Origin: Bacillota bacterium
GTDB lineage: Bacteria > Bacillota > Sulfobacillia > Sulfobacillales > Sulfobacillaceae
Length of the DNA stretch: 53,798 nucleotides
Direction: 5' to 3'
NCBI GenBank assembly: GCA_021797675.1
Contig: JAJZZH010000151.1
Span: forward strand, 1 to 53,798
Part shown: positions 16,014 to 18,890 of the stretch, piece after piece
Numbering within the stretch: position 1 is the stretch's first letter
How the letters are laid out: each line of letters opens with the position of its first letter
Position numbers and translations under genes: made by a program
Notes under the pieces: model-generated
What the model saw: the letters and a program-made list of their open reading frames with translations, nothing else
What the model was told of the DNA's origin: nothing
The model's database searches: none

Positions 16014-16128
16014 CTAACTCTCGCCGTCGAAGATCAACGAGTACCCGTGATGGGCCAGGCGATCCATCATCGCCGCGGTCATCTGGTCGTGCGTAAAGAC
16101 CGTGCCCCAGTGGTTATGAGTACTTAAT
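16014..16128 (-). pseudogene. istB: IS21 istB 3' remnant
   Basis: The minus-strand frame ends STHNHWGTVFTHDQMTAAMM and then DRLAHHGYSLIFDGES before a TAG at 16014-16016. This matches the conserved C-terminus of the IS21 helper ATPase IstB (consensus WGEVF...DRLLHH...GESYR). The frame is cut at the left boundary of the IS91-like element (16129), where a stop appears within two codons. The rest of istB is not found on the far side of that element. The flank at 15848-16013 would be the old IS21 right end. Confidence 0.65.
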
Positions 16129-16281
16129 TATTGGACTAAACCGCTGCGCGGTGGTTAAAAACCTTCCCTCTTCTCGATCCGAATTGGCTCTACGTCTTTC
16201 GCAATGACGGTGGGGGATCGTACACTGGAATGCGACGGGGTTTCGTCCTCTCGAACGCACCCCGGATGAAGGAGGCCCATC

Positions 16282-17157
16282 GTGGAACATTCCCCCTACG
16301 CGGACATCTTGCGGCGCATGCGCGACGATCTGATTCTGCGCAAGCTTTCGCCGCATACCGTGGCCAGCTATCTTACGCACGCCCGCCTGTTTTTGGCGTG
16401 GTGCGCCCGCCCGGCGGACGCGCTCGACACCGACGACATTCGCCGCTTTCTCGTCGCCTTGATCACCGAATACCACCTGGCTGCGTCCACCGTCAACGTC
16501 TATAGCGCGGCCATCCGCTTTCTGTTTGCCGTCACCTTGAATCGTTCGCTCAATTATCTGCAGATTCCGCGGCAAAAGGAGCCCCAGACCTTACCCGTGG
16601 TGTTACATCGAACGGAGGTGGCCGCCATCCTGGGCCAGGCTGTCGCCCCCAAACATCGGGCCCTGTTGACGCTCCTCTACGGGTCGGGACTGCGCATCAG
16701 CGAAGCCGCCGCCATGAAAGTGCCGCACATTGATTCCGCCACCATGCGGGTCCTGGTGGTGGGCGGCAAAGGGCAGAAGGATCGGTATACCCTCCTGTCG
16801 AAGGCCGCGTTGACCGCCTTACGCGACTATTGGCGGGCGTGCCGCCCGCACCATCCGGACGGCTGGCTGTTCCCGGGCTCCAACCCCTCGGGGCATATGA
16901 CCCCGGCGGGGATTCGGTTCGCTTTTGATCACGCCGTGGCCCGGGCGCAGATCGTCCGTCCGGTGACGGTGCATACTTTGCGCCATGGTTTCGCCACGCA
17001 TTTGCTGGAAGACGGGGCCACGCTCCTGCAGATTAAGGAGTTACTCGGCCACCGCAGTATTCCGTCCACGACCGTGTATCTGCATCTCGCCCATCTAACG
17101 GGGGGCTTGCAGAGTCCGCTGGACGCCTTCGTCGAACAGGTGGCCCATGGCGGTTGA
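16282..17157 (+). CDS. Tyrosine recombinase of the IS91-like element
   Basis: XerC/D-like integrase of 291 residues. The N-terminal SAM-like core-binding domain covers residues 1-95 (MRDDLILRKLSPHTVASYLT). The catalytic domain shows the first Arg in GSGLRISEA (about 140), Lys in GGKGQKDRY, HTLRHGFATHL (about 231-241), the second His in ELLGHRS, and the nucleophile Tyr in TTVYLHLA (about 267). The complete R-K-H-R-H-Y set suggests activity. The GTG start at 16282 follows GAAGGAGG. Its 3' end overlaps the transposase start by 11 bases, implying coupled translation. In IS91 the equivalent gene is often shortened; here it is full length. Confidence 0.9.
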   Translation: MEHSPYADILRRMRDDLILRKLSPHTVASYLTHARLFLAWCARPADALDTDDIRRFLVALITEYHLAASTVNVYSAAIRFLFAVTLNRSLNYLQIPRQKEPQTLPVVLHRTEVAAILGQAVAPKHRALLTLLYGSGLRISEAAAMKVPHIDSATMRVLVVGGKGQKDRYTLLSKAALTALRDYWRACRPHHPDGWLFPGSNPSGHMTPAGIRFAFDHAVARAQIVRPVTVHTLRHGFATHLLEDGATLLQIKELLGHRSIPSTTVYLHLAHLTGGLQSPLDAFVEQVAHGG

Positions 17158-18286
17158 AGTCCAAGATATCTTTGTCCAATATGGTCCGGCCTACCAGCAG
17201 ACGCATTCCCTGACGCGCGAGCAACGGCAAGTGCTCGAGGCCCTTCAGACGTGTCGGACGGCCGCCTTAGGCGGCCATGTCGACGTCTGCGACACCTGCG
17301 GGGTCCTTCAGATCTCCTACAACTCCTGCCGCAATCGCCACTGTCCCAAGTGTCAAGCCCTACGCCAAGCCCGGTGGGTGGCCGCGCGGACGGAGGATCT
17401 GCTGAATGTGGGGTACTTTCACGTCGTCTTCACCCTCCCGGAGGCCCTGCATCCCGTGGCGTTACAGAACCCTCGGGTGGTCTATGGTCTGTTGTTTCGC
17501 GCGGCGGCGGACACCCTCACCGAGTTGGCCGCCGATCCGACCTATTTGGGGGCCCGCATCGGGATGACCGCCGTCTTGCACACGTGGGGCCAAAACCTGA
17601 TGTACCATCCCCATCTGCATGTGATCGTCCCCGGCGGGGGCCTGACCCCCACCGGCACGTGGCAGCCCTCGCGGAAAAAGTTCTTTCTTCCGGTCAAAGT
17701 GCTGAGCCGCGTGTTTCGGGGCAAGTTTCTCGCCTATTTGCAGGAGGCGCAGCTCGAATTTCACGGGGCCGTCGAAGCTCTCCGCGATCCCGGGGCGTTT
17801 GCCGCTTGGCTTACGCCGCTGTACGCGAAGGAGTGGGTCGTGTACTGCAAACCGCCCTTTGCCAATGCCCGCCGGGTGGTCGCCTATCTGGGGCGCTACA
17901 CCCATCGAGTGGCCATCTCGAACGCGCGCATCCTGCGCCTGGAAGCGGGGCAGGTGACGTTTCGGTGGCGGGACTACCGGGATGGGAATCGGCAGAAGGA
18001 GAGGACCGTGTCGGCGGAGGAATTTATCCGGCGCTTTCTGTTACACGTGTTGCCTCCGGGGTTGACGCGGATTCGCCATTATGGCTTCTTAAGTCCGCGC
18101 AACAAGCCCACCCAGCTCAAGCAGTGTCAACGCCTGACGCAGACGCTGCCGCCGATCGACGTGCCTCGCACCACCCTGGAGCTCTTGCAACAGCTCCTCG
18201 GCCGGGATGTGACCGTCTGTCTCGCCTGTGGGGTCGGCCATCTCCGACGCCTGCGGGCGTCCCCGGCGGACCTCTTAACTGCATAG
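17147..18286 (+). CDS. IS91-family HUH (Y2) transposase
   Basis: Rolling-circle transposase of 379 residues. An N-terminal zinc-binding region (about residues 45-68) has Cys pairs in CDTCG, CRNRHCPKCQ. The HUH metal site is MYHPHLHVIVPGGG (about residues 152-165), and the paired catalytic tyrosines lie in AYLGRYTHRVAIS (Y-x-x-x-Y, about 247-251). A zinc-knuckle-like CLACG is near the C-terminus. These are the hallmarks of IS91-type enzymes, which nick one strand and transpose by rolling circle. The gene is intact and coupled to the recombinase upstream. Confidence 0.93.
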   Translation: MAVEVQDIFVQYGPAYQQTHSLTREQRQVLEALQTCRTAALGGHVDVCDTCGVLQISYNSCRNRHCPKCQALRQARWVAARTEDLLNVGYFHVVFTLPEALHPVALQNPRVVYGLLFRAAADTLTELAADPTYLGARIGMTAVLHTWGQNLMYHPHLHVIVPGGGLTPTGTWQPSRKKFFLPVKVLSRVFRGKFLAYLQEAQLEFHGAVEALRDPGAFAAWLTPLYAKEWVVYCKPPFANARRVVAYLGRYTHRVAISNARILRLEAGQVTFRWRDYRDGNRQKERTVSAEEFIRRFLLHVLPPGLTRIRHYGFLSPRNKPTQLKQCQRLTQTLPPIDVPRTTLELLQQLLGRDVTVCLACGVGHLRRLRASPADLLTA

Positions 18287-18474
18287 CGGGTCTCCCGGTC
18301 GTAGCCCCTTCGGTGGGGAGGGGGAACCTGTCGCGTCCGATGGCGCTGACCTCGGGTCGCACCCTCGGCGGGGCCCGCATCGCCGGGCAAAGTGCCCTGC
18401 CGTCGCCGTCGATGGAGGGGGTCCGGAAGATTGATTGCCCATAGGGCGCTCGACCGACCGCGGTGTAGTCCAAT

Positions 18475-18545
18475 AGAGTTATCGCAAGTCCTTGGCAGTG
18501 CCTCGTCAGGGACCTTTTTTGTTCCTCAGGACTTCCGATAACTCT
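18475..18545. repeat. 71-bp imperfect palindrome abutting the IS91-like element
   Basis: Outer arms AGAGTTATCGCAAGTCC (18475-18491) and its complement with one mismatch (18529-18545) flank a 37-base centre that contains a terminator-shaped hairpin. The arms may be the ends of a small non-autonomous element, or two IS ends joined by internal deletion. They share one base with the IS91-like right boundary. Confidence 0.6.
18488..18520 (+). terminator. Intrinsic terminator inside the palindrome
   Basis: GTCCTTG pairs with CAGGGAC (one G-T pair) around a 12-base loop, followed by CTTTTTT. It would stop transcripts leaving the IS91-like transposase gene. Confidence 0.6.
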
Positions 18546-18890
18546 CTATTTAGTATGCCTATTGACCGAGGATTGGTGTGGGATCCATCGGGCTAACGGC
18601 CCCAATAAATTCCACAAATTCTCGTTTCCTGACTTGCGGAACTTGGGTTGCAAGGGCTTTGTTGGTGCTGGACGCACCTGGTGCCCGCGCGGTAAGTTCG
18701 GGTTTGCGGTGATTCCCGTCGCATTTTGCGACGGGCTATTGGCGTGCGCTCAATGCGCCTCCAAGAGACGGTTCCTTGCAGCTGGCATCAGTCGTGAGAG
18801 CGTTGCCCTAAACCCTTCAGACATAGTCGCCTCATACGATCGTAATATATGGGGGCTAATGGGTAAGGATTAGGGCTTTAGCCGTGGGGT
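18546..18890. other. Gene-free gap with a perfect hairpin
   Basis: No supported gene. A perfect 9-bp stem with a 3-base loop lies near 18714-18736 (CCCGTCGCA / TGCGACGGG), without a T-tract. An open frame of about 100 codons at 18562-18873 has no ribosome binding site and no recognisable features. Confidence 0.4.

Follow-up and report, generated by a model that had tools for sequence, protein, structure and literature searches.

Comparison of the natural copies of an IS91-like element suggests that its tyrosine recombinase guides insertion to the recombination sites that bound other mobile elements, versus the plain four-letter target used by relatives that lack a recombinase. The insertion sites give a direct and testable answer to the question of what the recombinase does, in the form of a dif-like, bipartite target that is absent in IS1294. 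We favor, with a probability of roughly one-half, a divided labor in which the HUH transposase would handle the donor ends and the recombinase would select, and perhaps catalyze, integration at recombinase core sites. The element lies in the window, by which we mean the whole 53,798-nucleotide stretch of DNA that was analyzed, in a draft assembly of about 4.06 Mb in 242 contigs; the host's relatives that share the element belong to the same family.

Genes and family membership

The element encodes a Xer/IntI-like tyrosine recombinase of 291 residues (16282..17157, + strand, GTG start; catalytic R138, K163, H231, R234, H257, and Y266), with AAGGAGG at 16269..16275 (+ strand) as its likely ribosome-binding site, and an HUH/Y2 transposase of 379 residues (17147..18286, + strand; HPHLH at 154-158, Y247/Y251). 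Both reading frames are intact and overlap by 11 bp, and Pfam finds Phage_integrase in the first and Y2_Tnp (230 bits) with Zn_Tnp_IS91 (112 bits) in the second, bearing out the first-pass annotation of a complete recombinase overlapping a complete transposase in an IS91-type element. The transposase also matches the NCBIfam model transpos_IS91 at 468.8 bits (cut-off 125), and the catalytic residues of both enzymes are unchanged in the two nearest relatives. The 11-bp overlap recurs in a Sulfobacillus locus of genome G008 (L019, identical to L048; 2345 versus 2355), and a gap of 7-8 nt separates the genes in rhizobial copies; the overlap makes translational coupling plausible. The window's own Y2 transposase gene is the only one in the assembly. 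Because right-end pieces 98% identical to the window element lie at the ends of contigs C116 and C119, more copies may be collapsed in the assembly.

Judged by its sequence, we classify the element as a member of the IS91 family that carries an integron-integrase-like recombinase. It has unlike left (ter) and right (ori) ends with the right end beside the preferred target, as the family requires, and its insertions are free of target-site duplication. It departs from the family trait of lacking terminal inverted repeats, in that a repeat is terminal on the left only and subterminal on the right; this arrangement is a trait of the subgroup and no reason for exclusion from the family.

Pairing and selection of the two genes

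A scan of one genome per species by transposase alignment gave 80 best loci at 46-71% identity, which are the most similar relatives and do not represent the IS91 family as a whole; they come from Firmicutes, Deltaproteobacteria, Nitrospirae, Planctomycetes, an archaeon, and others. The recombinase gene lies directly upstream of the transposase gene on the same strand in 76 of the 80. Among the remaining loci, L055, L072, and L075 gave no recombinase match and L126 only a weak remnant. In close pairs, dN/dS ranges over 0.057-0.138 in the recombinase and 0.065-0.124 in the transposase; the recombinase is under the same purifying selection as its partner. Given this pairing and this constraint, both enzymes appear to be needed, as had been surmised from the window alone. 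The same figures speak against the recombinase being a passenger or expression partner with no part in mobility, which we consider very improbable; in its favor, miniature elements without either gene persist, though these are mobilizable in trans.

Borders and terminal structures

The element spans 2422 bp (16131..18552, + strand). Its ends had been placed at 16129 and 18475, with the proviso that a conserved region reaching past the inverted repeats would speak against this placement, and on the right the conserved region does extend to 18552. Alignments of the copies, and of miniature elements 352-365 bp long, from the host's own genome and its relatives put the left border at 16131 and the right border at 18552, 77 bp past 18475 and after a hairpin. 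The TA at 16129-16130 is flank and lies outside the element. On the left, the flank at 16112..16130 (+ strand) is identical to a terminal repeat of a RIT element, a type with three tyrosine recombinases, elsewhere in the genome, and the two diverge exactly at 16131 apart from two T residues common by chance to the element and the RIT repeat. On the right, homology to loci in the related genome G014 starts exactly at 18553. Since the RIT repeats and the G014 loci break precisely at these positions, the two borders are fixed independently, and the pair 16129-18475 was discarded on the evidence of the copies, the miniature elements, and both flanks. We likewise rejected the base to the left of TTGG as part of the element, as near-identical left ends in Sulfobacillus show A, G, C, or T there. 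With correct borders, such elements and their miniature relatives can be annotated.

The ter-like left end (16131..16154, + strand) consists of TTGGACTAAACCGC and a small hairpin, ACCGC/GCGGT; it is near-invariant in those copies whose flanks diverge just before TTGG. An inverted copy of this end, GCGGTGTAGTCCAA, lies subterminally on the right (18460..18473, - strand). It is followed by a long hairpin with a run of T in its loop (18475..18545, + strand; arms 18475-18492 and 18528-18545), which is kept in the miniature elements, and by the right terminus CTATTTA (18546..18552, + strand), a candidate HUH nick motif whose tail is common to IS1294 (CCTATACG^T, the caret marking the border). The recurrent features across the set are ACTAAACCGC with the small hairpin, a subterminal GCGGTTTmGT, the long hairpin, and a terminal TA-rich hexamer; in the subfamily, most recombinase genes are preceded by ACTAAACCGC at a distance of 100-170 nt.

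The 15-of-16 inverted repeat noted at first (16129-16144 with 18460-18475) is real and exceeds chance, but its right arm is subterminal and does not form the outer end. Counted from the true left end, 13 of the first 14 bases match, a value reached by 0 of 2000 right-end shuffles, whereas IS1294 fails the same test (9/14, p ~0.2). The two arms also covary across 44 loci, with 35 pairs at position 1 (16.3 shuffled), 35 at position 3 (21.4 shuffled), and 39 at position 5 (16.8 shuffled), although shuffle statistics here and below ignore kinship among the copies.

The miniature elements carry both element ends and a conserved middle, in family members without a full transposase gene. In the host assembly (G000) they occur on contigs C227, C161, C212, C138, C188, C230, and C235 (L004, L006, and L009-L018), giving eight left ends in addition to the full copy, and they are also present in the relatives G001, G006, G014, G018, G020, and G030. 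A conserved small reading frame ending in IDCP and a stop codon did not hold up across them (8-51 codons). At L007, L024, L035, L008, and L038 the right-end hairpin stands alone, lacking all other parts of the element; L038 has TAAGTAGAGAGTTATC, an extended palindrome, on either side. At L006/L183 (G000:C227:50592-51170), the right flank of the miniature is inverted relative to the left, in comparison with the same repeat at L173, L174, L175, and L176 of other genomes. Two loci contain repeated units: in Candidatus Argoarchaeum ethanivorans (L121, 5472-8617), two identical 1515-bp units directly follow the element at a G^TTGAAC junction, with extra transposase matches, and look like a head-to-tail array; in Peptococcaceae BRH_c8a (L066), 2183 identical bases recur with a period of 3979, as in a tandem copy or an assembled small circle.

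The target site

The 48 junctions that we assembled reveal a bipartite target of dif-like form, CATAA-N6-TTATG, in which insertion takes place at the right edge of the spacer. At least four of the five bases of TTATG adjoin the right border in 25 of the 48, compared with at most 5 at any other offset, although the tail motif served to set several of the right borders; the base immediately past the border is therefore partly circular, but the left arm and the arm complementarity are unaffected. In 15 of the 48, a CATAA-like left arm (at least 4/5) is separated from the border by exactly 6 nt; any other offset accounts for at most 4. Within single targets the arms are complementary only at a spacer of 6 (3.98/8, versus 3.18 shuffled, maximum 3.77), so the target has the two inverted arms and 6-bp spacer of a Xer dif-type core. 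Examples, written as left flank and right flank of the insertion, are GGCACATAA-TCGCAT and TTATGTGG in NGR234, GGTATAA-GTGCCT and TTATGCC in R. johnstonii, and TTTGCATAA-CCCTTT and TAATGTAAAG at the Sulfobacillus locus L048. Many Sulfobacillus copies have poor left arms.

Uninterrupted sites bear out the anatomy of the junctions. The R. johnstonii site (L146) has uninterrupted counterparts, L187 and L190, that run contiguously through the joint with the six-base spacer and no duplication, and comparison of L006 with the uninterrupted Sulfobacillus site L177 likewise reveals no target duplication. S. meliloti 2011 (L188) provides a further uninterrupted site. The joined flanks of L148 have no single contiguous empty site; L188 supplies the left side together with the right side of L147. 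A target duplication, considered for the Desulfosporosinus clade where the same hexamers lie on both sides, was rejected on account of the duplication-free rhizobial empty sites and of hexamers that elsewhere differ from one side to the other, and we read the matching hexamers as identity between spacer and tail. Most copies of the Desulfosporosinus/Clostridium clade have a target spacer identical to the last six bases of the element (TAGACA, TATGGA, TAAGAA, and TATGAA), and over all copies the N6 on the left is identical to the last six bases at 147 of 288 positions, versus 102.6 after shuffling (maximum 124, 5000 shuffles).

We take the targets to be recombinase att sites, mostly those of other mobile elements. 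Tyrosine recombinase genes of other elements adjoin several rhizobial and Paraburkholderia copies. For the window element the target is one end sequence of the RIT type: its left flank, GGTTATGAGTACTTAATTA, is the same, base for base, as either terminal repeat of the RIT element L218 on contig C165 (G000:C165:3144-6651), which comprises three adjacent tyrosine recombinase genes between terminal inverted repeats GGTTATGAGTACTTAATTATTATGGAAAGTC; the 14-mer TTATGAGTACTTAA occurs exactly three times in the genome, and the last six bases of the flank, TAATTA, form the spacer of the target core site. The left flank also holds a fragment of IS21 istB, and the right flank from 18553 encodes a protein end, PIDRGLVWDPSG followed by a stop codon, corresponding to the 3′ terminus of a gene that G014 carries in many copies; the flanks are thus not two halves of one locus. 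As the RIT interior is absent to the right of the element, we infer that this side has been rearranged since insertion. The right flanks at L145, L146, L148, L019, L034, L041, and L205 often form a complete palindrome, TTATG(N8-10)CATAA, in many cases with AAAGG after it; this palindrome is probably a mark of recombinase-element ends that serve as hotspots.

Proposed roles of the two enzymes

IS1294, an IS91-family member that lacks the recombinase, served as a control, with 10 independent sites. They show only a right-side TGAAC/TCAAG, in agreement with the GTTC/CTTG target described for IS1294 (PMC6052338), and no left arm. The left-arm score is 0.28 for IS1294, equal to background, versus 0.567 for the recombinase group, and none of 20,000 draws of 10-site subsamples from that group was as low as 0.28; the comparison is a correlation, as the transposases of the two groups differ too. 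Both sides share the tail CTATnCR^T, with CCTATACG^T ending IS1294 and CTATTCA^T on the recombinase-bearing side. Because the recombinase-free element ends in the same tail, this motif goes with the HUH enzyme, and it is parsimonious to regard the tail as the HUH nick motif and to assign the target's left arm and spacer to the recombinase. The elements thus resemble IS91 and IS1294 in their Y2_Tnp transposase, a right end beside the preferred target, the absence of target duplication, and the tail, and differ from IS1294, which has no recombinase and is described as lacking terminal inverted repeats (PMC6052338), in their left/right-subterminal inverted repeat and bipartite dif-like target.

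The shared tail would also fit a scheme in which the HUH transposase does everything in the manner of IS91, preferring stem-loop targets in single-stranded DNA, and the recombinase is accessory. CATAA-N6-TTATG can fold into such a structure, with CATAA/TTATG as the stem and N6 as the loop, a further palindrome, TTATGnnnnnnnnCATAA, is often present in the targets, and HUH enzymes commonly act at hairpins. A point against divided labor is that donor and target carry matching N6, as would fit an HUH enzyme that cuts one motif twice. We nevertheless regard an HUH-only reaction as possible but rather unlikely: the recombinase-free IS1294 lacks the left arm, insertion takes place at established recombinase sites, RIT ends among them, and selection constrains the two enzymes equally.

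Under the divided labor that we favor, the HUH/Y2 transposase would nick the donor at the right end, after the hairpin and CTATTTA, yielding a displaced or circular strand that ends at the left terminus, TTGGACTAAACC. The Xer/IntI-like recombinase would recognize the dif-like target core, about CATAA-N6-TTATG, and would direct, and probably catalyze, a duplication-free joining at precisely the right-hand edge of the 6-nt spacer. We infer the action of the recombinase on the target, and which enzyme cuts which end. The first-pass annotation had instead raised the possibility that the recombinase resolves a circular intermediate. Nothing that we found points there, and the natural insertion sites indicate target recognition and integration at core sites. 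More broadly, Xer-like enzymes resolve dimers, and the inverted repeat at the element ends could be a putative recombinase binding site for resolving multimers or circular rolling-circle products, as a cointegrate resolvase does, with target choice incidental; the core-like sites with a 6-nt spacer, however, lie in the targets, an unsystematic reading of the element brought no such two-arm core to notice in its interior, and we hold this explanation to be quite improbable.

Relationship to integrons and other known systems

The best solved relative of the recombinase is the integron integrase 2a3v (8.6e-28), followed by XerA and XerD, and its best NCBIfam model is integron integrase (TIGR02249; 176.6 bits, under the cut-off of 265), ahead of XerC (161.5) and XerD (149). 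In a midpoint-rooted tree with IntI1, two host Xer proteins, and RIT recombinases, IntI1, the single and long-branched IntI, joins the IS91-linked recombinases with support of 99/98, and these cohere at 96/91. The I2 alpha-helix insertion is absent, with 18 residues versus 57 in 2a3v between matched blocks (HMM alignment breaks 186/205). Integrases need this insertion for single-strand attC recombination (PMC7790495), and Smyshlyaev et al. found it not fully conserved in their integron-like subgroup (PMC8138268). The ends also bear boxes that resemble those of attC. In an attC site, R' (GTTRRRY) and R'' (RYYYAAC) come together in a folded hairpin and the cut falls at G^TT. In the window, GTCCAAT at 18468-18474, within the right subterminal repeat, resembles an attC R'' box, making the element's own boxes GTCCAAT and ATTGGAC. 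The left end is exactly TTRRRY in 19 of 44 members, at least six of the seven R'' bases are present in 20 of 44, and in 10 of 44 a left TTGRAC and a right GTYCAAY both match TTRRRY and RYYYAAC exactly. When the ends are joined, R^TTGRAC, formed by tail and left end, would be able to pair with GTYCAAY in the layout of attC R' and R''.

These attC-like boxes and the IntI relationship suggest an integron-like single-strand route, and the missing I2 and differing spacers argue against a close match. The elements resemble integrons (IntI with attC/attI) in a recombinase that groups with IntI1, a junction at R^TT, and, in 10 of 44 members, end boxes that match those of attC, and differ from them in lacking I2, in their box spacers, and in an HUH enzyme that has no integron counterpart. 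We consider it unlikely that they are self-mobile integron cassettes, that is, HUH-made single-stranded circles that would fold like attC and be inserted at dif/attI-like sites by an I2-less sister of IntI; if true, the system that gave rise to integrons would have living relatives in these elements. The IntI grouping and the attC-like ends bear on integron origin. Like CTX phage and other IMEX, which use Xer at dif, the elements insert at a dif-like core and may do so from a folded single-stranded substrate; unlike them, they encode their own recombinase and target mostly the att sites of other mobile elements, not chromosomal dif.

Tyrosine recombinases also accompany IS91-family entries of ISfinder such as ISWz1 and ISShvi3. 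Pairing of IS91 with XerD has been documented before, as 245 "IS91 - XerD" couples in 15 phyla (PMC9208149); these are the same gene pair and include the group of the window element, the XerD is treated there as a neighbor gene, and we found in that paper no description of the present borders or target. Copies of ISwz1 form circular intermediates (PMC11322121), and the IS91-like ISShvi3 has been described next to an attC site (PMC9229058), in keeping with our observations. Our search of the open literature, with ISfinder and subscription papers outside it, returned no report of these borders, of the dif-like bipartite target, of insertion at RIT ends, or of split, attC-like ends, and no stated role for the recombinase of the widespread IS91/recombinase pairs. 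On plasmid p11J360-1 of Acinetobacter nosocomialis, a "xerD-like" recombinase between ISVsa3 and tet(X3) (L223) groups with the IS91-linked recombinases, and the gene may be a remnant of an IS91/recombinase element.
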